DNA of 26,014 nucleotides from a virus. Each line of letters starts with the position of its first letter. Position 1 is the first letter of the stretch. Both the position numbers and the translations under genes were made by a program. The stretch spans positions 1-26,014 of IMG/VR virus record IMGVR_UViG_3300020171_000121, one strand, 5' to 3'. Of this stretch, positions 1,449 through 19,219 are shown in pieces. Below the pieces are notes generated by a model that saw only the letters and a program-made list of their open reading frames with translations, did not search any database and was not told the origin of the DNA.

Positions 1449-2420
1449 TTATTTAAATAATCTTCGTTTAAATGTCATCTGCGACCTTGTGTCTTTGTCT
1501 CGGTGAGCCCAGTATTTCAAAATTGCCACTTCGTCTGTTTGAATGAGAGAAGCAATGTCGTTTTTCCTGCCCATTTCATTGGCAATTAAAAAAGGCAAAG
1601 ACGCTTGCCTTGCCAAGTAAGGATGATGAATAACAGGAATACCAGGTTCTTTATTGGCTTTTAAAAACTTATGATTGCCGGATTGCGAACCAGAAGTATT
1701 AACTGCTGTTCCGCCCAGAGTGGTAGAAACTTGAAAAGCATCAGCAGTTAAACCGGTAGAAATTACATAATAAAGCGTGGTGTCGGCTGTCAGTCCAGTG
1801 GGTAAAGCTCCGTCTGTTTCAAAAATCAAAGCGTCATTTAATGCCAAGCCGTGCGTTGCGGCTGTGAAAACTCCTGGCGTGGCAATGGTAACCGTAAAAG
1901 TAACAAAAAGATATTTAGCCATTTCCCGATTAACATAAGCTCTTAATCCGTCAGTTTCGGAATAATCAGGGCAAGGGCGGATATAAATATAATCCCCCAT
2001 TTTTGTCCAGTATTGGGGTATGCCTCTGCTGGCGGTGTCGGTTGAGTAAAGCTCATAGAAATCGCTCAGGTCGTCAAATTCTTCCCTGCCTAAATCAAAT
2101 TCTGTAGCGTCATCATCCAAAATAGACATTTTCAAAATCTGCAAAACTTCATTGGTGAAAGCAGATATTTTATAGTAATTAGTTCCGGCAACAAGACTTT
2201 GCTTTTCCAAGGGCAGGGCGGTCTGGTTGGTGTCGTCAAAAGTTCCCTTAAGGGCTGATTCGGAAGCCAAGAACCAGTATTTGTCTAACGCGTCATTTAT
2301 TCTGGCTACTTTGGCTTTGTTGGAATAAGAAGCATTGCCCACCGCTCCTTCGGGCAAACCGCACAAGCGGTTGATTTCCTCGCTCAATCCTGAATTGTCA
2401 ATAACATCTGAGTATTTCAT
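1449..2420 (-). CDS. Head-tail connector-like structural protein with inserted beta domain
   Basis: This 323-residue protein is the second gene after the major capsid protein and the paired glycosyltransferases, the usual slot of a head completion or adaptor protein. Residues 1-170 are mostly helical and hold a strand-rich stretch with YIYIRPCPDYSETDG, seen in adaptor-like proteins of uncultured phages. Residues about 173-253 are a separate Thr/Gly-rich beta module (ALPTGLTADTTLYYVIS, then AFQVSTTLGGTAV), a repeat type widespread in phage structural proteins. The helical core then resumes with an Arg-rich tail. The start overlaps the preceding stop as ATGA. Adaptor function is inferred from position. 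Confidence 0.7.
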   Translation of the reverse strand: MKYSDVIDNSGLSEEINRLCGLPEGAVGNASYSNKAKVARINDALDKYWFLASESALKGTFDDTNQTALPLEKQSLVAGTNYYKISAFTNEVLQILKMSILDDDATEFDLGREEFDDLSDFYELYSTDTASRGIPQYWTKMGDYIYIRPCPDYSETDGLRAYVNREMAKYLFVTFTVTIATPGVFTAATHGLALNDALIFETDGALPTGLTADTTLYYVISTGLTADAFQVSTTLGGTAVNTSGSQSGNHKFLKANKEPGIPVIHHPYLARQASLPFLIANEMGRKNDIASLIQTDEVAILKYWAHRDKDTRSQMTFKRRLFK

Positions 2421-3016
2421 ATTATTACTTCGCCGATATGCCCGACTTTGGGTCGTGGGTCGGCGTGTGTTTTAATTCCATACTTTTTGGCTTTTTCGCA
2501 AAACCACCAATCCTCTCCAAGTTTGCAACAGCCATTGTCGTGATATTCAAACATAAACCACGGCTGGGGGACTTTTTTAAAGACCTCGCATTTAATAAGG
2601 ATTATTCCCGTGCCGGTGGCGTGGCATTCAAAAACTGTCTGATACTTTGGGTTCTTTTTTATTTCAGGGTCTTCCAATCTTACGGCGTGGGTTTCGTCTA
2701 AAAACTTGATAATCTGGCCGGTTTCTGCCCGAGGATGATAGGCAGTTCCGCAGATGTCTTTGTTGTTGGCTATCAGTCTCTCTAAAATGTCCGGCTCAAA
2801 AGTCATATCGTCATCTATCATCAGTAAGTAATCAGAGCCGCTTTTGACCGCTTGAGCGGAGATATAACTTCTGTTCTCAGCAATGGTGTATCCTTCACTG
2901 GCAACTATAATATTCAAGTCGTATTTTTTGTTTGAATGAGCAACCATCTCTAAAAGGCATTGCATTGTGAGGGCGTTTATCCCGCGATTTGTCGGTATGG
3001 CGATTGTTGTCTTCAT
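2417..3016 (-). CDS. GT-A fold glycosyltransferase (family 2-like)
   Basis: The 199-residue protein starts with a Rossmann-like strand (TIAIPTNRGINALT) and carries the acidic metal and nucleotide-sugar binding signature IDDDMTF at about residues 67-73, typical of GT-A transferases. ENRSYISAQA at about 47-56 matches the nucleotide-binding region of family 2 enzymes. Near the C-terminus, GEDWWFCEKAKKYG supplies the acidic catalytic-base region. It is clearly paralogous to the gene at 3296-3868, with similar length and motif order. It overlaps both neighbours by 4 nt. The acceptor is unknown; virion protein, cell wall or modified DNA glycosylation are options. Confidence 0.8.
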   Translation of the reverse strand: MKTTIAIPTNRGINALTMQCLLEMVAHSNKKYDLNIIVASEGYTIAENRSYISAQAVKSGSDYLLMIDDDMTFEPDILERLIANNKDICGTAYHPRAETGQIIKFLDETHAVRLEDPEIKKNPKYQTVFECHATGTGIILIKCEVFKKVPQPWFMFEYHDNGCCKLGEDWWFCEKAKKYGIKTHADPRPKVGHIGEVII

Positions 3017-3295: not shown

Positions 3296-3868
3296 TTAAA
3301 ATACTTTTTGTCCGATATGCCCTATTTTTAACGAAGGATCGCACCACACATCAAATCCCAATTCCCTTGCGTTGTGGCAAAACAGCCAGTCGTGGCTCAT
3401 CTTAACGCTTCCATTGTCGTTCCAGATATAATTGAACCAACCTTTTTGACCTTTGTAATTCTGCGGGATTTTCTTGAATACATCTGTTTTAATCAAAAGG
3501 CAACCAGTTCCTAATGCTCCACACTTAAAAGGAACGCCTATTCCTTCGTTTTCCAAATATTCAATAACCGGAGCTTGAACCTCGTATTTGGTGTTGTAAA
3601 CAGCCCCTACAATGTCTTTGTTGTGGGAAAGCAATCTGTCTAAAGTGCCGGGCGGAAAAATCATATCATCATCTACAAAGAATAAATGTGTGCAATCATT
3701 TTTTATCGCCTGTGCCGCTATGTAATTCCTGTTTTCCGAGGTATTGAACCCGCGCGTAGAAACAATAAAATAATAGTCATGTTTTGAATTGGCAACCAAC
3801 CGCAATAAAGATAAAGCGGTTTTCGGTCTAACTAAGCGATTTGTCGGAACGCCCACGGCTATTTTCAT
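3296..3868 (-). CDS. GT-A fold glycosyltransferase, paralogue
   Basis: Paralogue of the 2417-3016 gene. It begins MKIAVGVPTNRLVRPK, has SENRNYIAAQA at about residues 44-54 and the metal-binding VDDDMIF at about 65-71, then GALGTGCLLIKTDVFKKIPQ and SHDWLFCHNARELG with the expected C-terminal acidic residue. I start at ATG 3868 because GGAG lies about 10 nt upstream; an in-frame GTG at 3892 would add eight residues. It is the first gene after the major capsid protein, suggesting late expression. Substrate and acceptor are unknown. Confidence 0.8.
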   Translation of the reverse strand: MKIAVGVPTNRLVRPKTALSLLRLVANSKHDYYFIVSTRGFNTSENRNYIAAQAIKNDCTHLFFVDDDMIFPPGTLDRLLSHNKDIVGAVYNTKYEVQAPVIEYLENEGIGVPFKCGALGTGCLLIKTDVFKKIPQNYKGQKGWFNYIWNDNGSVKMSHDWLFCHNARELGFDVWCDPSLKIGHIGQKVF

Positions 3869-3879
3869 AATCTCATCTC

Positions 3880-3904
3880 CGCTCCCAACCACAAGTAAGG
3901 AGCG
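3880..3904 (-). other. Hairpin between capsid and glycosyltransferase genes
   Basis: CGCTCC at 3880-3885 pairs with GGAGCG at 3899-3904 across a 13-nt loop, in the gap between the capsid stop and the glycosyltransferase start. There is no T-run, so it is not a classical terminator. It may stabilise the capsid mRNA end or damp translation of the next gene. Confidence 0.35.
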
Positions 3905-3912
3905 AAGGGAAA

Positions 3913-4803
3913 CTACGCTGCTACATTAACATTGATAAAGAACTGCGCCAGTTGAGCAGGCCAGTCGAAACCATAGTCCACTCGGCTTGCGATACCAAGT
4001 CCGGATTTCGGAGCGTTGGTAGTAACAGATGCCGGAGGGTCTTCAATAAACTTACATCTTCCGTAAGTTCCGCGAAGAATACCGATTTCGCCACATTTCT
4101 TAATACCTGCGAATACGTGAAGCGCGGTGTGCGAGTTTGAAAGATAATGGTCAACTCCCATATACCTGAATGCCTTTTGAACGGGGATGCCGTTCTTTAG
4201 GGCAATGTCAGCTTCGGTGAAGCCATTAGCCTGAACAAATGCCTCTAACAGTTCAAAATCTTGCGCTCGCCAAACAATGAAGAGTCCTCTTTCAACAGCC
4301 AAATCTACGCCATTATTGTAGTAAATCTTCCGCTTGATAGCCCTGATAATGTCATCAATGTTGGCAGCTGAAACCGTGATCGCAGTAGTATCGTCAGCGC
4401 CAGTGTTTGCAAGGTCAGTCACTCCAAAGTCTTTCCAGTTGGCGTATTGAGCAAGCACTAAAGACTCTAACTTTTCAACTGTTTTCTTGCCGTGATAATC
4501 AGCAATAGACATCTGGCTGACATAGTTCTGCTGAAGCCTGTCAGCTTCGTCAATGAAAATAGCGAGCTGTTGGATTGAGCTTATAGTCAGCGTTTCCGCA
4601 GTCAACGCAAAATCCTTATAGGCATAGGCAGTTCCTCTTGTGCCTGTTGCCAAGTCCGGCTCGGTTGACATATAAGCATTGATAATCGAATAGCTGTCGC
4701 TATACTTGACTGAAAGAACATCTGTCCAGCAAGTCGGCTTGTTGATTCGGTCGCGCATTCTTTGCACATAATCGTATTTATTCCAAATTACAGTATTAGC
4801 CAT
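3913..4803 (-). CDS. Major capsid protein (HK97-fold type)
   Basis: This 296-residue protein follows terminase, portal and scaffold in order and resembles capsid proteins of uncultured tailed phages. The N-terminal part (MANTVIWNKYDYVQRMRDRI) leads to a helical segment at about 85-135 (spine helix candidate). A mixed region follows, with VDLAVERGLFIVWRAQDFELLEAF at about 166-189, and the C-terminal beta part holds GIASRVDYGFDW. The C-terminus shows no cleavage or fusion domain. The scaffold is a separate gene 44 nt upstream. Assignment rests on context and overall look rather than a diagnostic motif, but the position makes it likely. Confidence 0.82.
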   Translation of the reverse strand: MANTVIWNKYDYVQRMRDRINKPTCWTDVLSVKYSDSYSIINAYMSTEPDLATGTRGTAYAYKDFALTAETLTISSIQQLAIFIDEADRLQQNYVSQMSIADYHGKKTVEKLESLVLAQYANWKDFGVTDLANTGADDTTAITVSAANIDDIIRAIKRKIYYNNGVDLAVERGLFIVWRAQDFELLEAFVQANGFTEADIALKNGIPVQKAFRYMGVDHYLSNSHTALHVFAGIKKCGEIGILRGTYGRCKFIEDPPASVTTNAPKSGLGIASRVDYGFDWPAQLAQFFINVNVAA

Positions 4804-6288: not shown

Positions 6289-6900
6289 TCAAATTATCAC
6301 TTTTGATACTTGCATTAATTCTTGAAAAATAGGAATTAATGCTTTTTCTTCAGCTCTTTTCCTCGGATGATGAGCTGGGCACAAAGTAATGCCATTGTTA
6401 ATGTTATACCTTAATTCGGGATAATCTCGCCAAGGCAAAATATGGTGAGCAATTATTTTTCCAGAACAATCTTGATTATTTATTTTGCATTTAAAACCAT
6501 CTCTTACCCAAACATTTATTCTCCAAGCTTGATAAGCACTATCATTTCTTTCTTGCCGTTCTTTATAATTTCCGTTAACCCATTTATGATTATTTTCGCC
6601 ACTATTATATTTACCCCAACATTTCATTGAGCAAAATCTTTGATTTTGAAAATTATAAGAGGTAAATATTTTTCTGCAATTTGAACATTCTTTTTCTACT
6701 ACACCCTTTCCCTTATTCCAAGAATATACACCAACAGCAATTTTATGTTTGGAACAACTTTTAGCTTCGCGTCTTGCCAATTTCTTTCCGCAAATAGGAC
6801 AATTTGGCTTTCCGCCTTTCCAATTTGGATTATTTTTGCCCCTAAATTTCTGTTTAAATCCTTCCGACCTTGGTTTGCGTTGATAAATTCCCGTAGGCAT
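6289..6900 (-). CDS. HNH homing-type endonuclease with zinc ribbons
   Basis: The 203-residue protein begins with a NUMOD3-like element (KFRGKNNPNWKGGK) and two zinc ribbons (CPICGKKLARREAKSC; CSNCRKIF with RFCSMKCW). A C-terminal HNH domain follows: WVRDGFKCKI, HHILPWRDYPELRYNINNG and LCPAHH supply the His-Asn-His residues at roughly 150-180. Free-standing HNH genes of this type are common phage mobile elements that nick DNA near their own insertion site. It separates the two paralogous membrane-anchored genes of the head module, so it looks inserted there. Confidence 0.88.
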   Translation of the reverse strand: MPTGIYQRKPRSEGFKQKFRGKNNPNWKGGKPNCPICGKKLARREAKSCSKHKIAVGVYSWNKGKGVVEKECSNCRKIFTSYNFQNQRFCSMKCWGKYNSGENNHKWVNGNYKERQERNDSAYQAWRINVWVRDGFKCKINNQDCSGKIIAHHILPWRDYPELRYNINNGITLCPAHHPRKRAEEKALIPIFQELMQVSKVII

Positions 6901-12799: not shown

Positions 12800-13141
12800 T
12801 CAAGATATTTTTTCATAAATTATTTCTAAATCTTTAATGCCTAAGGGTCGTAGATTATTCACTTCTTTTATCAGCCATTTGTAAATCTCTATTCCCTTTA
12901 TTTTTTTAACCTGTTCGGCGAATACTATCGGTTTGTCGTGGGCGTGTCTGTGGCATTTAGCGCAAAGACATAAAGCGTTCTTTTCTTCCCAGCGTAGCTT
13001 TAAGATTTTACGGGTTATGATGTGGCACGCCTGCAAGGTATCTCTCGCTCCGCACCATTCGCATCTTCCCTTGCTTCGTATCTTCTCACTGAATAATTTA
13101 TCCAGCTTTCTTTTTAGATTTTTTTTGCTTTGCTTTTTCAT
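12800..13141 (-). CDS. HNH nuclease, NinG/Rap-like layout
   Basis: The 113-residue protein has a Lys-rich N-terminus, a Cys pair CEWCG near residue 27, ACHIITRK as the first His motif, and NALCLCAKCHRHAHD completing the HNH site with its zinc ligands. AAGGA six nt before ATG 13141 supports the start. Size and the QACHI...LCAKCH order resemble phage recombination-associated HNH proteins such as NinG more than homing enzymes, but a homing nuclease cannot be excluded. Confidence 0.8.
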   Translation of the reverse strand: MKKQSKKNLKRKLDKLFSEKIRSKGRCEWCGARDTLQACHIITRKILKLRWEEKNALCLCAKCHRHAHDKPIVFAEQVKKIKGIEIYKWLIKEVNNLRPLGIKDLEIIYEKIS

Positions 13142-14231: not shown

Positions 14232-14822
14232 TTAATACCAATTATTGCCGTTTATTTGTGGAGCTATGTAGTTCCAGAAATAAAGAGCGTTAGTTGGCGT
14301 TTTATATCTTTGTAAAATATAATTATTCATCCAGTCCAATTCGCACTCTGCGTTATATAGGCAACCGACCGGCATTTTATTGCAAGGTAAACTTTGCCCT
14401 AAGCCACAAGCGCCTGAAATTGGATTGATGTTTCCCACTTTCCAGCCAGCTTCTTTGACCTCTAAATCGTAAAATGCTTCCCACTCTTTTTCACCCCAGA
14501 TTTTTACAACCTTCCCATAAGCCAATAAAATCACTTCTTCTTTACCGACTGAAATGCGATTAAAGGTGCTTATTTGCCCCTGTGGCGGGTTTTGAGGGTC
14601 AAAGACGACCTCTGGGGCGTTTTGTCCCAGCAAAGCTCCCTGCGTCAAAATAAGCTGGTCTTCCGGCGCCGACCCGAAATTCATCACAGCTTCCTGATAA
14701 GCCAGAGCCGGAGAGGCGATAACATTCTGGATTTCAAAACTTTTTGTTTTGGTTAGAAAAAAAATCAATAACCAAGCAAAGATAAGAATTAGCCAGAAAA
14801 TATTTAATGATATTTTGTTCAT
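14232..14822 (-). CDS. Membrane-anchored lytic transglycosylase-like protein
   Basis: The 196-residue protein has an N-terminal signal anchor at about residues 6-24 (LNIFWLILIFAWLLIFFL) and a linker. The C-terminal lysozyme-like domain has KEAGWKVGNINPISGACGLG (Glu124 as expected catalytic acid), then SLPCNKM, DWMNNYILQRYKTP and a terminal NNWY. That order matches the aggregation-promoting-factor type transglycosylase domain, which cleaves peptidoglycan glycan strands. Extra Cys residues (139, 147, 154, 160) may form disulfides outside the membrane. It could be an exported endolysin or a wall-remodelling enzyme. Its start overlaps a repeat-encoded 17-codon mini frame. Confidence 0.8.
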   Translation of the reverse strand: MNKISLNIFWLILIFAWLLIFFLTKTKSFEIQNVIASPALAYQEAVMNFGSAPEDQLILTQGALLGQNAPEVVFDPQNPPQGQISTFNRISVGKEEVILLAYGKVVKIWGEKEWEAFYDLEVKEAGWKVGNINPISGACGLGQSLPCNKMPVGCLYNAECELDWMNNYILQRYKTPTNALYFWNYIAPQINGNNWY

Positions 14823-14831
14823 ATTCTCATT

Positions 14832-14872
14832 CCCACGGGCGTTCGTGGGTTAGTTTTTGAGAGTTTAGTCAT
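14832..14872 (-). repeat. 41-bp repeat with start-proximal hairpin, copy A
   Basis: Identical to 15556-15596 over 41 bp. It contains the hairpin CCCACG-(6 nt)-CGTGGG (14832-14849) and, on the minus strand, an ATG (14870-14872) reading MTKLSKTNPRTPVG. It sits between the 58-residue gene and the transglycosylase start. Confidence 0.8.
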
Positions 14873-15048
14873 TATTGGTTGATTGTTTTTTCAAAATCTT
14901 TATACCATTTAGCTTTTAATTTTGCTCTTGTTTTAATATTTCCTTTACTTTCAAAAAATCTTTTAGCGTTTTCCCAATTAGAAACCCAAAATCTCCAAAT
15001 TACAGCTTCACTTTTCTGTGATAAAAATTTTTTAGTTAATTTTCTCAT
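14872..15048 (-). CDS. Small basic Trp-rich protein (58 aa)
   Basis: ATG 15048 opens 58 codons (starts MRKLTKKFLSQKSEAVIWRF). It is Lys/Trp/Phe-rich, probably two or three helices, with a pattern WRFWVSNWENAKRFFESKG that looks like a small helical fold. GGGGATGAGAAG directly precedes the start, supplied by hairpin copy B. No family recognised. Confidence 0.6.
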   Translation of the reverse strand: MRKLTKKFLSQKSEAVIWRFWVSNWENAKRFFESKGNIKTRAKLKAKWYKDFEKTINQ

Positions 15049-15056
15049 CTTCTCAT

Positions 15057-15075
15057 CCCCTTGGCTTTAAAGGGG
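15057..15075 (-). repeat. Start-proximal hairpin, divergent copy B
   Basis: CCCCTT (15057-15062) pairs with AAGGGG (15070-15075); the loop on the minus strand contains AAAGCC like the other copies. The stem bases differ from the other copies but still pair. It ends 9 nt before ATG 15048. Confidence 0.65.
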
Positions 15076-15087
15076 GGTTAGTTTAAG

Positions 15088-15324
15088 TTAAAGAAGTGTT
15101 TTTAAATCCTCAATGCTTGCGGGTTCAAATTGTTCTAATAAAAACTTTTCCACTAATTTAACCTCATCTTCTTTTCCTGCCCTTTTAAGAAAACGTTTGT
15201 AAAGTTCCAAAGCACAAATTAAAGCATCAAATTGCCATTCAGTTGCAAGTATAAAAAATAGTCGCTCATCACCTATAAGTAATTTCTTAATTGGATTTGG
15301 TCTTAATTTAAGTTCTTTTTCCAT
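15088..15324 (-). CDS. Hypothetical protein (78 aa)
   Basis: From ATG 15324 the protein begins MEKELKLRPNPIKKLLIGDE, with a helical centre (EWQFDALICALELYKRFLKR) and an acidic helical end. A GTG at 15339 would extend it into hairpin copy C and is not preferred. Possibly a small helical bundle; no family recognised. Confidence 0.6.
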   Translation of the reverse strand: MEKELKLRPNPIKKLLIGDERLFFILATEWQFDALICALELYKRFLKRAGKEDEVKLVEKFLLEQFEPASIEDLKTLL

Positions 15325-15333
15325 TTTATTTTT

Positions 15334-15353
15334 CCCCACGGGCTTTCGGGGGG
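15334..15353 (-). repeat. Start-proximal hairpin, copy C
   Basis: CCCCACG (15334-15340) and CG plus a run of nine G (15347-15357 region) with a 6-nt loop. Same position as the other copies: between an upstream stop and ATG 15324, with GGGGAAAAATAAA before the start. Confidence 0.65.
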
Positions 15354-15356
15354 GGG

Positions 15357-15545
15357 TTATTTAACTCTTTTAATTTCAGCAATAGTCCATTTTTTACCCT
15401 CTGGTTCTTTTTTATTCTTTTCTTCTAATTTTTTATTTTTATCTTTAATAATATTCCATAAACCATAACCAAATCTTGTTCTCCAGAAACTATAATTATA
15501 TAGCATGCCATCTTCTCTTGTTGATTTTATTTGATAGATTTTCAT
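15357..15545 (-). CDS. Hypothetical protein (62 aa, repeat-encoded extension possible)
   Basis: From ATG 15545 the protein begins MKIYQIKSTREDGMLYNYSF and has a Lys/Glu-rich second half. An in-frame ATG at 15596 with GGGAG nine nt upstream would add 17 residues encoded by repeat copy D, including the hairpin. The first two residues and beta-like start resemble the 15645-15845 protein (MKIYYITEKK). No family recognised. Confidence 0.6.
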   Translation of the reverse strand: MKIYQIKSTREDGMLYNYSFWRTRFGYGLWNIIKDKNKKLEEKNKKEPEGKKWTIAEIKRVK

Positions 15546-15555
15546 TTTATTTTTC

Positions 15556-15596
15556 CCCACGGGCGTTCGTGGGTTAGTTTTTGAGAGTTTAGTCAT
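15556..15596 (-). repeat. 41-bp repeat with hairpin, copy D
   Basis: Perfect match to copy A, with hairpin CCCACG-(6 nt)-CGTGGG at 15556-15573, followed on the minus strand by GGGGAAAAATAAA and ATG 15545. Here the repeat's own ATG frame is open into the downstream gene. Confidence 0.8.
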
Positions 15597-15644
15597 TTAT
15601 AATTTCTCCCTCTACAATCTTCATCTTGATATAGGGGTTAGGGA

Positions 15645-15845
15645 TTAGTTAATCCTCATGCTTCTAATAACCATATCTGTTTCTTCTTCTCCCTGTTTTT
15701 TGAGATATTCTTTGTATTTCTCAGCAAATTCCTTTTCATAGAAAAACGCCAAACAACTCAACATCTTTCCACCGACCCTCATATCGGCATCCCAGAAGAA
15801 AATATCTCTCTTATCTTTTTTTTCTGTAATATAATATATTTTCAT
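15645..15845 (-). CDS. Hypothetical protein (66 aa)
   Basis: A 66-residue protein: beta-like N-terminus (MKIYYITEKKDKRDIFFWDA), then a helix rich in Lys and Glu (YEKEFAEKYKEYLKKQGEEE) and a final strand (DMVIRSMRI). The strand-helix-strand layout suggests a small ferredoxin-like fold of the type found in phage accessory proteins. No hairpin copy precedes this gene. Confidence 0.6.
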   Translation of the reverse strand: MKIYYITEKKDKRDIFFWDADMRVGGKMLSCLAFFYEKEFAEKYKEYLKKQGEEETDMVIRSMRIN

Positions 15846-15849
15846 AATT

Positions 15850-16062
15850 TTAATTTAAGATTTTAATTTTCACCTTAACAATTTTATTTCGAACTCCTTT
15901 TGTTGTGGGGTTAGGTAATTTATTCAATGCTTTCAGCTCTTTTTGAGCATCTTTTTTGGTATCAAAAATGCTTACGCTTGGATGTTTAATTCCCCCGCCC
16001 CAATCAGTTATCGCCCACGCATTTATTGTTTTGGCTTCATTGTTAGTTTTTTCTTTTTTCAT
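15850..16062 (-). CDS. Hypothetical protein (70 aa)
   Basis: A 70-residue basic protein with INAWAITDWGGGIKHPSVSI, then FDTKKDAQKELKALNKLPN, typical of a small alpha/beta domain, and a Lys/Val/Ile-rich terminal strand. Preceded by hairpin copy E and GGGGAAAAACAAA before the ATG. No family recognised. Confidence 0.6.
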   Translation of the reverse strand: MKKEKTNNEAKTINAWAITDWGGGIKHPSVSIFDTKKDAQKELKALNKLPNPTTKGVRNKIVKVKIKILN

Positions 16063-16071
16063 TTTGTTTTT

Positions 16072-16091
16072 CCCCGCGGGCGTTCGTGGGG
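16072..16091 (-). repeat. Start-proximal hairpin, copy E
   Basis: CCCCGCG (16072-16078), 6-nt loop GGCGTT, CGTGGGG (16085-16091). On the transcript strand there is one A-C mismatch in a 7-bp stem. It lies between the stop at 16097 and ATG 16062. Confidence 0.7.
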
Positions 16092-16096
16092 GCTAG

Positions 16097-16324
16097 TTAG
16101 TTAATCTTTTTAAGCCGAAATGCATCTGCTAATCCTTGCTTGCGACCTTTCCTTGCTCCTTTAATATAGCCTTTGTTATAGGATTTTTCTTTTTCTTGTT
16201 CAATAAAATCAAAAAGGGGTTGCAATTTCCAACCACGACCTTCTGTGTGTTCTTTAACAAACTCTGTCCAAAACTCGTGAGAAAATATTTCGTTAAACTC
16301 CTCCTCCCACAATTTTTTAGACAT
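16097..16324 (-). CDS. Hypothetical protein (75 aa)
   Basis: From ATG 16324 (MSKKLWEEEFNEIFSHEFWT) a charged helical protein with a Gly/Lys/Arg-rich segment (KGYIKGARKGRKQGLADAF) near the end. An in-frame ATG at 16348 lies inside the upstream gene and is less likely. No family recognised. Confidence 0.55.
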   Translation of the reverse strand: MSKKLWEEEFNEIFSHEFWTEFVKEHTEGRGWKLQPLFDFIEQEKEKSYNKGYIKGARKGRKQGLADAFRLKKIN

Positions 16325-16715
16325 AATTTTCTTTAAATTTTTTACCATATTTACTAACTCTTATTTTTTTAGTAAACCAATATAAATTTTTAATAGCCAT
16401 TTCTCTTTTTTTATCATCCCAGTCATATTTCCTATGACAACTACGACATAATCTTAAATAATCTTTTCTATTATGGCTATATGTTTTTCCCTTTTTCAAG
16501 CACCATTCAAATATTTTGCTCCTATCTTGACAATAAGGATTTTCACAAATCATAGATTTCCCAAAGTTTTTATTGAGCCATTTATGTTTAGCGGTCTTTC
16601 CCGCTAAAACCCCTTTCCATCTTGGCGTTTCTTTCCCTCTTTTATTAATCATTGACTTGTAATAATTTATTTGAGATAGGGTTTTGCCCTCCCAATTTTT
16701 TGTTTTTTTGGTCAT
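16317..16715 (-). CDS. HNH-like zinc endonuclease
   Basis: The 132-residue protein is very basic. An N-terminal part with TPRWKGVLAGK recalls the WKGG element of the other HNH proteins here. It is followed by CENPYCQDRSK, FEWCLKKGKTYSHNRKDYLR and LCRSCHRKYD, which give Cys pairs and the His-Asn-His pattern. Probably a free-standing homing-type nuclease. A G-rich hairpin precedes it. Confidence 0.7.
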   Translation of the reverse strand: MTKKTKNWEGKTLSQINYYKSMINKRGKETPRWKGVLAGKTAKHKWLNKNFGKSMICENPYCQDRSKIFEWCLKKGKTYSHNRKDYLRLCRSCHRKYDWDDKKREMAIKNLYWFTKKIRVSKYGKKFKENYV

Positions 16716-16866: not shown

Positions 16867-17151
16867 CTATGGTTTTTTCCAATCATATTTTTCTATCATA
16901 TCTTGGCGGATTTTCTTTATCCAAGCACGAGCTTTCTCATAATTGCTTTCATCTTTCGGGGCTTCTAATTTGGGAATATCTGGCTGGTCTTCGTAATGGG
17001 TTATTTTAGAAATTGAGCTGGTGTGTATCATACTATCGCCTAATTGCACGATAGCTTTCTTTGCCCACGCTTGCATTAACCTTTGGCCCTGTTCGTCCGT
17101 AATAAAAATTGGCGGATCATCATCGCGAAAAAATGTTAGTTTAAAGCTCAT
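16867..17151 (-). CDS. Hypothetical protein coupled to replication gene
   Basis: A 94-residue protein: beta-rich first half (MSFKLTFFRDDDPPIFITDE, then VQLGDSMIHTSSISKITHY) and a helical, charged C-terminus (ARAWIKKIRQDMIEKYDWKK). Its ATG overlaps the replication protein stop (ATGA), so it is probably co-translated with it. It ends in TAG, after which the frame remains open for 73 codons. Role unknown, possibly replication-associated. Confidence 0.65.
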   Translation of the reverse strand: MSFKLTFFRDDDPPIFITDEQGQRLMQAWAKKAIVQLGDSMIHTSSISKITHYEDQPDIPKLEAPKDESNYEKARAWIKKIRQDMIEKYDWKKP

Positions 17152-17858
17152 ATTTTAATTATTTGTTTATTTTTCTGTCTATCACTCCACGCTTTTAGTT
17201 TGCCCATATTTTTCTCAAGCTCTAATGGCGTGGTGGTGGTCGGGGCGTATTCTTGTTTATTTATAAACTCAAGGGCTTTAATCATTTCTGTCAACTTGTC
17301 GCCGTGTTCTTTTAACATCCGCTCTAATACCGCGCGCTGGGTTTTATTTTTGTATAATTGCTTATAAGAAGGATTTATCGGTTCAAATAATTTTATCAGT
17401 TCATTTATTGGCAAATCGTTAGATTTGCTATGTAATATAATATCCTTATTTATTTCCTTATCTAGTTCCTTATCTAATTGGTATGCACAACTTGCATAGT
17501 TTATTGTCGTATCTTGCATAGTTTCCGGTCGTATCTTGCACCCTTTAGAAACTATGCACAACTTGCACCCTTTGGGAACTTTAAGTAATTGATAGATATT
17601 TGCTTTTCCGCGACCCCCACCCGTAATTTTTAACACATAACCTCTTTTTATAAGTATATTTATTGAAAATATAGCTTTTCTAACACTTACGCTTGCTCGT
17701 TCCGCTATTAGTTCAAAACTTGGTCTTATTTCTTTACAACCGGCAAAGGTGCATAGAGCAGAATAAACTACTTTATCAAAAGGATTTATATGTGGACAGG
17801 CGATAACAGCATTATTTACCCAGTGCCATTCGCCATTTCTTGTATCTCTTATTTCCAT
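17148..17858 (-). CDS. Winged-helix replication initiator-like protein
   Basis: From ATG 17858 (MEIRDTRNGEWHWV), about 236 residues. The N-terminal domain has the winged-helix order NPFDKVVYSALCTFAG, RPSFELIAERASVSVRKAIF and LIKRGYVLKITGGGRGKANI. A variable Cys/Lys linker follows. The C-terminal domain, LPINELIKLFEPINPSYKQL and then HGDKLTEMIKALEFINKQEY, resembles the end of phage O-type/DnaD-like initiators. Such proteins bind origin repeats and recruit helicase or loader. The linker DNA carries five repeat copies, as in lambda O where the origin lies inside the gene. GAGAG eight nt upstream is the likely ribosome site; an upstream ATG/GTG at 17873 is not preferred. Confidence 0.75.
   Translation of the reverse strand: MEIRDTRNGEWHWVNNAVIACPHINPFDKVVYSALCTFAGCKEIRPSFELIAERASVSVRKAIFSINILIKRGYVLKITGGGRGKANIYQLLKVPKGCKLCIVSKGCKIRPETMQDTTINYASCAYQLDKELDKEINKDIILHSKSNDLPINELIKLFEPINPSYKQLYKNKTQRAVLERMLKEHGDKLTEMIKALEFINKQEYAPTTTTPLELEKNMGKLKAWSDRQKNKQIIKI
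17482..17573. repeat. Iteron-like repeats inside replication gene (origin candidate)
   Basis: CTTGCATAGTTT at 17491-17502 and 17513-17524, CTTGCACCCTTT at 17535-17546 and 17562-17573, and an inverted AAACTATGCA at 17549-17558. Two flanking 13-15 bp repeats (GTCGTATCTTGCA, TATGCACAACTTGCA) occur twice each. Spacing of the first three is 22 bp. They coincide with the linker-coding part of the initiator gene. Confidence 0.65.
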
Positions 17859-17879
17859 AATTTTTACTCTCAACTACAA

Positions 17880-18506: not shown

Positions 18507-18801
18507 AGATATTTCCGATAATTTCAGTAGTATTATTTACAAAAGGATACCATCCCTGATTTTTCCAAATAACTTCTACTGGTTCTTTTTGCCCTTTCCA
18601 AATAATCAAATCAGATTGATAAATCTCTTTTCCTTGCTTATCTTTTAAGCCGGTGTATTGTATAATGGTATATTCTTGTGGATTTTCCATGCAATGAGCA
18701 AAAAAATTCCAATCATCATCAATTTCCCACATCTTCCCTTTAAACTTTTCTGGATTTGATGGTTTTTCCCATGCTTTAAATTTATAGATTCTTTCCTGCA
18801 T
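18481..18801 (-). CDS. YopX family protein
   Basis: The 106-residue protein begins ERIYKFKAWEKPSNPEKFKG and contains the family hallmark IIQYTGLKDKQGKEIYQSDL, followed by a short SH3-like beta part and the terminal IIGNIYEHSEL. YopX proteins are common in phages and prophages; function is poorly known. Length fits the family. It overlaps the HNH gene end by 20 nt, and GGAAA precedes the start. Confidence 0.85.
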   Translation of the reverse strand: MQERIYKFKAWEKPSNPEKFKGKMWEIDDDWNFFAHCMENPQEYTIIQYTGLKDKQGKEIYQSDLIIWKGQKEPVEVIWKNQGWYPFVNNTTEIIGNIYEHSELIK

Positions 18802-19219
18802 ATGTTTCCGTCAACTTATGACATTTCTTGCAAAGAGTAATTCCATTGTCTATATTCCATAACTCCTTGCATCGAATGGCACCTGCTGAACTTTTAAGAT
18901 TATTATTTTTAATAATTTCTTTTAGCGACTTTATATGATGTGGTTCTAAATAGACCCCAACTGAATGACAATCCTGACAAGTCCAGTTGTCTCTTATGAA
19001 AATCTTTGTTCTCCATTTTTTATAATTATCGAGTGAATGGATACATCTTGTTAAATCAGTTAAGCCCCCCTTCCAGGCTCGTGCCAGTTTTCCAGTTCTT
19101 CCTAAAATAGAATTTCTAATCAATTCAATTGATTCTTTTCTATGTTTACTTCCCTTGATGAATCCACCAATCTTTTTGTGCCCTTTCTTAAAAGAAGTTT
19201 TGTTTGCTTTATTATTCAT
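18782..19219 (-). CDS. HNH homing endonuclease with NUMOD3-like N-terminus
   Basis: The 145-residue protein has an N-terminal basic segment (FKKGHKKIGGFIKGSKHRKE), then ARAWKGGLTD, the WKGG element shared with the other HNH genes here. The HNH domain follows: WTCQDCHSVGVYLEPHHIKS, NIDNGITLCKKCH. His, Asn and His residues and both Cys pairs are present, so it should be active. It is a likely mobile free-standing nuclease next to YopX. Confidence 0.87.
   Translation of the reverse strand: MNNKANKTSFKKGHKKIGGFIKGSKHRKESIELIRNSILGRTGKLARAWKGGLTDLTRCIHSLDNYKKWRTKIFIRDNWTCQDCHSVGVYLEPHHIKSLKEIIKNNNLKSSAGAIRCKELWNIDNGITLCKKCHKLTETYAGKNL

Follow-up and report, generated by a model that had tools for sequence, protein, structure and literature searches.

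Introduction

The SAS and ESAS of Cluster K mycobacteriophages are short repeats found a few bases ahead of the starts of some non-structural genes, which belong to several families (PMC3203893). Nearly all SAS have one orientation, and about half of them have an adjacent inverted repeat, the consensus of which differs by phage subcluster (PMC3203893). The arms of ESAS are 17 bp long and lie upstream of SAS, and the authors saw little evidence that they form a hairpin in the mRNA (PMC3203893). In translational coupling by RNA unfolding, a downstream Shine-Dalgarno (SD) sequence lies in a hairpin that can be opened by the upstream ribosome (reviewed in PMC12548453). The attC hairpins of integrons can hinder translation of the next gene, an effect that can be lifted by a short ORF running across the hairpin (reviewed in PMC8876359).

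We found five related hairpins (A to E) in a small-gene region of a 26,014-base virus record, hereafter called the window. They resemble SAS/ESAS in being repeated 8-10 nt before an ATG in one (coding-strand) orientation, and by position and repetition SAS/ESAS appear to be the nearest described kind (PMC3203893). However, the 6-bp stem itself holds the SD here. The 13-bp SAS core GGGATAGGAGCCC, at 3 mismatches, has three matches in the window against 3.3 expected, none of them at the hairpins, and the window hairpins are therefore not members of SAS/ESAS.

Like coupling hairpins, the window hairpins have a predicted paired SD and short stop-start distances. Coupling hairpins are described for single gene pairs, whereas one presumed coupling device recurs here at successive junctions of unrelated small genes. 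An array of small genes separated by hairpins also recalls integron cassettes, and a mini-ORF at hairpin A might act as a relief ORF, but the stems are far shorter than those of attC and have the SD in the 3' arm. An integron cassette array was rejected: GTTRRRY core sites are absent at the hairpins (the sites were read directly), and no integrase domain was found among the ORFs scanned in this record, which may be a fragment.

In 2010, Arbiol et al. reportedly described mobile regulatory cassettes in T4-type phages, made of an early promoter and a stem-loop. Like the hairpins here, these cassettes are short intergenic units with a stem-loop, and they have reportedly been proposed to mediate the shuffling of small genes. 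The T4-type cassettes carry an early promoter, whereas the hairpins here have no coincident promoter-like site on the coding strand; since a scan of the - strand for sigma-70-like sites gave none at the hairpins, a promoter cassette of this type was rejected. A REP-type host repeat was also rejected, CCCACGAAMGCCCGTGGG having two unrelated matches in 84,980 GTDB species genomes, a search that diverged host versions may escape.

Hairpins and their setting

The recognised genes of the window, encoding a terminase, a capsid protein, a Rad52-like protein and a CHAP-domain protein, are all on the - strand; no gene was recognised on the + strand of the window. A strong SD is missing from the starts of most genes of this virus. 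The nearest terminase in INPHARED is 45% identical, and the phages concerned are Flavobacterium phages. The small-gene run is flanked by an HTH_36 replication-type gene (17148-17873) and a transglycosylase-like gene (14232-14822). The features of the region are as follows.

14232..14822, - strand: transglycosylase-like gene at the downstream end of the cluster (PHROG 12661, E 1.7e-10)
14819..14873, - strand: 17-codon mini-ORF through hairpin A, MTKLSKTNPRTPVGMRI; putative, read from sequence only
14832..14849, - strand: hairpin A, CCCACG-AACGCC-CGTGGG, 9 nt before the ATG of the transglycosylase-like gene 14232-14822
14872..16348, - strand: small genes joined by hairpins (14872-15048, 15088-15321, 15357-15596, 15645-15845, 15850-16062 and 16097-16348)
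15057..15075, - strand: hairpin B, CCCCTT-TAAAGCC-AAGGGG, 8 nt before the ATG of gene 14872-15048
15335..15352, - strand: hairpin C, CCCCCG-AAAGCC-CGTGGG, with one C.U mismatch, 10 nt before the ATG of gene 15088-15321
15556..15573, - strand: hairpin D, identical to A, 10 nt before an inner ATG and inside ORF 15357-15596
15608..15637, - strand: sixth, weaker hairpin before ATG 15596, with CTAACC, a C-rich arm, and GAGGGAG in the 3' arm
16073..16090, - strand: hairpin E, CCCACG-AACGCC-CGCGGG, with one A.C mismatch, 10 nt before the ATG of gene 15850-16062
17148..17873, - strand: HTH_36 replication-type gene upstream of the cluster, with relatives in the related loci L011 and L165

A preliminary description of this DNA had proposed five hairpins with an AA(C/A)GCC loop just before the starts of small orphan genes. 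We recovered all five where it had placed them, on the coding (-) strand. The 3' arm is separated from the ATG by 9, 8, 10, 10 and 10 nt (A to E), and the loops read AACGCC, AAAGCC or UAAAGCC. The small genes are orphans in that none gave a significant match in the family search, and no INPHARED phage has a DNA match to the cluster. The run of C in hairpin C extends as far as the upstream stop.

When up to 3 mismatches are allowed, CCCACGAACGCCCGTGGG finds 4 clear sequence copies in the window, namely A, C, D and E, each of them on the - strand, and none in 100 shuffles. The predicted folds of the 63-67 nt junctions A to E have energies of -12.7, -11.2, -9.4, -11.0 and -10.3 kcal/mol, corresponding to z-scores of -4.7, -1.9, -1.4, -2.8 and -2.1. 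A search of the window for additional good copies gave none beyond A to E, except for the weaker hairpin at 15608-15637, which has the layout of A to E but is an uncertain member with unremarkable folding energy (z -0.94). Among the Rfam covariance models, nothing came near the gathering score for the hairpins.

Other repeated features occur elsewhere in the window. HNH-type genes are dispersed at 6289-6900, 12800-13141 and 18782-19219, the first and the last being related to one another. Two tandem glycosyltransferase-like genes (2417-3016 and 3296-3892) share 39% identity over 206 residues and appear to be a local duplication. A small glycosyltransferase-like gene that comes after the capsid gene has a strong hairpin in front of it (3862-3915 on the - strand; -22.5 kcal/mol, z -4.2), the 3' arm of which contains an SD. 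Hairpins with AGGAGG or GAGG and some compensatory pairs are found before the same type of gene in relatives (L023:8463-8505, L045:6642-6678 and L072:11677-11730).

Mosaic copies and reading frames

Hairpins A and D share 42 identical nt, 24 nt of which are 5' flank. The 3' flank GGGGAAAAAYAAAATG is common to C, D and E, and another 3' flank, ATGAGAANATG, is common to A and B, indicating that the copies are mosaics. Thus, D has the 5' side of A and the 3' side of C/E. Such mixed flanks seem to fit the outcome expected from recombination or conversion between copies. One guess is that the 5' part common to A and D is the debris of a lost gene.

The placement of each hairpin between a stop and a start fails for D and is too simple for A. 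The ORF 15357-15596 starts 48 nt ahead of D's inner ATG, behind a strong SD (GAGGGAG), and passes in frame through the hairpin. The mini-ORF that crosses A overlaps both the preceding stop (TAATG) and the following start (ATGA). The preliminary description took the 3' arm of the copies to supply the SD-like sequence, and this is supported at C, at E and at the inner start of D.

Relatives at the same locus

A terminase search gave 80 related loci. The closest relative, L011, has a terminase 76% identical to that of the window and carries two hairpins, TTAACCACCCCTTAATGCGAGAGGGGGAAAACAAATG and CTAACCACCTCTTAATGTGAATAAGGGGAAATAAAATG, which are laid out in the same way. The first includes the stop of the preceding gene, and the second begins 3 nt past the preceding stop. 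Both lie between a rep-type gene and an SLT transglycosylase gene, an arrangement as in the window, and the small genes at this slot are wholly unlike those of the window. The transglycosylase genes of L011 and the window align poorly (22%), so that they correspond by type and place only. In another relative, L165, the neighbouring gene is 68% identical to that of L011 and is joined directly to the next ORF without a hairpin, and there are no small genes at the corresponding slot. The number of hairpins at the slot is therefore none (L165), two (L011) or five (the window). Together with the different genes, this comparison of only three genomes would fit insertion or exchange of hairpin-plus-gene units. 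The idea of hairpins as cassette boundaries gains support, since those of L011 flank different small genes and L165 has none there.

The expectation of matches before the starts of unrelated small genes was borne out in L011 only and not across phage collections. In IMG/VR, exact and gapped DNA patterns gave chance matches apart from L011, and no exact copies of the hairpins were found elsewhere in the searched collections. Several candidates were rejected. GGGGAAA-AAATG as a signature of the module is a start motif of many unrelated phages. The matches of one model (R1) in G044, G042, G019 and G031 were judged by inspection to be due to chance, and so were the weak matches of another (R2), except for L038 and perhaps L053.

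Start segments in wider relatives

Among 79 records there are 110 separated repeat pairs, of which 10 have both members associated with a start, where 0.73 would be expected; the gene calls were simple, and the pairs are clustered in a few viruses and so are not independent. Hairpins were found in 12 of 180 short gaps of the relatives (2.7 expected from shuffled gaps) and in 3 of 12 short gaps of the window (0.32 expected), some of the counted hairpins being terminator-like. Surveys of hairpins ahead of starts were too strict when perfect stems were required and too noisy when the search was loosened.

L047 has two exact copies of a 26-nt hairpin unit, the genes behind them being unrelated, and further start segments in two to four copies. 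One of these, AATAATATACTTATATG, has four copies (922, 1673, 1823 and 1949) before different small genes. In L025, both a 28-nt hairpin unit (93% identity between the copies) and a 22-nt start segment occur twice, L038 repeats GAGGAATAAATAAATATG, and L053 has two weak hairpins at stops. The elements of L025, L047 and L053 have a layout like that of A to E, with no demonstrable common ancestry and folding energies that are not exceptional. These repeats suggest that reuse of start-associated segments between unrelated small genes is a wider habit of these phages. Two unrelated small genes of L025 have nearly the same final 37 bases (456-492 and 1338-1374, encoding LSVT-ASQDKE-stop), indicating that gene ends are recycled as well as starts. 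In two relatives, L026 (2142-2193) and L068 (11750), the junction that follows the terminase gene contains a terminator-like hairpin with a T run behind it.

Sequence and structure of the copies

Hairpin B had been described as still pairing in spite of altered stem bases, which would make it a copy by structure and not by sequence. In agreement with this, B escapes a profile built from the sequences of A, C, D and E alone and is recovered by a covariance model of these four copies (E = 9.1e-5). In the L011 locus, the two best matches of this model are the hairpins of that virus (E 0.014 and 0.085). The E-values of the models built here are rough. Several stem bases of B and of both L011 hairpins are unlike those of A, with pairing intact. 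The inner stem CTT/AAG, or one close to it, is common to B and the L011 copies, so their difference from A may be a single event. No covariation was found among A, C, D and E. Their sole variable pair (A-U) is broken in C (C.U) and in E (A.C), and thus pairing is not uniformly kept. Scans with the rep gene and its neighbour recovered only L011 and L165, and hence no larger set for covariation. Overall, these comparisons suggest selection on the structure of the stems.

One possible, though unlikely, explanation is that the hairpins are start-associated repeats without a folding role. Useful segments (spacer, GGGG, A-rich stretch and ATG) would have been duplicated with genes, and the palindrome would have arisen by accident or as a side effect of duplication and palindrome-correcting mutation. 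The disrupted A-U pair of C and E fits this, as do the 42-nt identity of A and D, a sign of recent copying, and the repetition of non-folding start segments in relatives (AACGAAAGGTAATAAGTATGG and AATAATATACTTATATG in L047, GAGGAATAAATAAATATG in L038). However, B and both L011 copies pair despite their other stem sequence and are found only with the structure term, and A is much more stable than its shuffles (z -4.7).

The inverted repeat might instead act as DNA, either as an operator- or stoperator-like repressor site or as a site of DNA exchange between copies. Its six-base arms with a six-base spacer, single orientation and location in short intergenic gaps are like those of the mycobacteriophage L5 stoperators (named in PMC3203893), and the mosaic flanks suggest exchange there. 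We consider this improbable, as the fixed distance to the start codon and the SD in one arm fit RNA better, and the same is true of the stem sequence, which is not kept between viruses, and of the G-U pairs in both L011 copies.

Within the window, no part of the copies is as well conserved as the loop (AACGCC, AAAGCC and UAAAGCC), and a site common to several genes could be an RNA operator, in which a phage or host protein binds the hairpin with its AAMGCC loop and represses or coordinates translation of the cluster. This seems quite improbable: the L011 loops differ (AATGCGA and AATGTGAAT), and no candidate RNA-binding protein was found in the window. Transcription terminators or attenuators between the small genes are hardly credible, because the stems, although GC-rich and in A, B and D called terminator-like by a simple scan on the + strand, where no gene is recognised, are followed on the coding (-) strand transcript by an A-rich segment and not by the U run of a rho-independent terminator, and none of the five is called there.

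Possible function of the hairpins

Our preferred reading, tentative and quite possibly wrong, is that the hairpins are virus-specific start modules, spread by recombination, which mask the SD until the upstream ribosome opens them (translational coupling). A module would consist of a C-rich 5' arm, often right after the preceding stop, a loop, a 3' arm ending in GGG or GGGG, a short spacer and the ATG. The GGG or GGGG end would serve as a weak SD. Modules would spread by short recombination or duplication between one another, so that the genes change, the junction stays and the copies within one virus are alike. The module and its spread are supported by the copies and their position, the mosaic flanks, the two L011 copies and the start segments that relatives use repeatedly.

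In the mRNA, the hairpin would mask the SD. A ribosome ending the preceding gene, or crossing the mini-ORF (A) or the longer ORF (D), would unfold it; the next gene would then start, and the outputs of neighbouring genes would be coupled. Masking is predicted by the low unpaired probability of the G run in the 3' arm (0.002-0.25). When a ribosome was modelled at the upstream stop as covering 10 nt past this stop, the unpaired probability of the G run rose to 0.97-0.99 for the two hairpins of L011 and to about 0.55 for C and E, and A, B and D were not freed, the upstream stop of D being too distant. The mini-ORF of A and the longer ORF of D would bring ribosomes through the stem in such a model, which leaves B without explanation. 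The size of any masking effect is uncertain, as GGGG is a weak SD and most genes here start without a strong one. We infer that folding alters translation, as had been suggested for this locus, and that recombination at the hairpins moves genes.

A broader version of this preferred reading, which we offer as a rather unlikely speculation, is that a group of uncultivated phages assembles its small-gene region from interchangeable units, each made of a gene and the virus-specific start hairpin before it. Recombination at the hairpins would swap genes and the hairpins would chain their translation, giving an integrase-free cassette array with built-in translational coupling.

Phage genomes have many tiny genes of unknown function that are gained and lost. 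If our interpretation is true, a reusable junction that provides every new gene with a start signal, and keeps it masked as long as the preceding gene is untranslated, would explain how tiny genes without their own promoters are taken up, and this junction would be a handle for finding newly gained small phage genes. Moreover, the start-associated sequences of mycobacteriophages, which still lack an explanation, would gain a counterpart in unrelated phages, and its mechanism could be tested by simple reporters.
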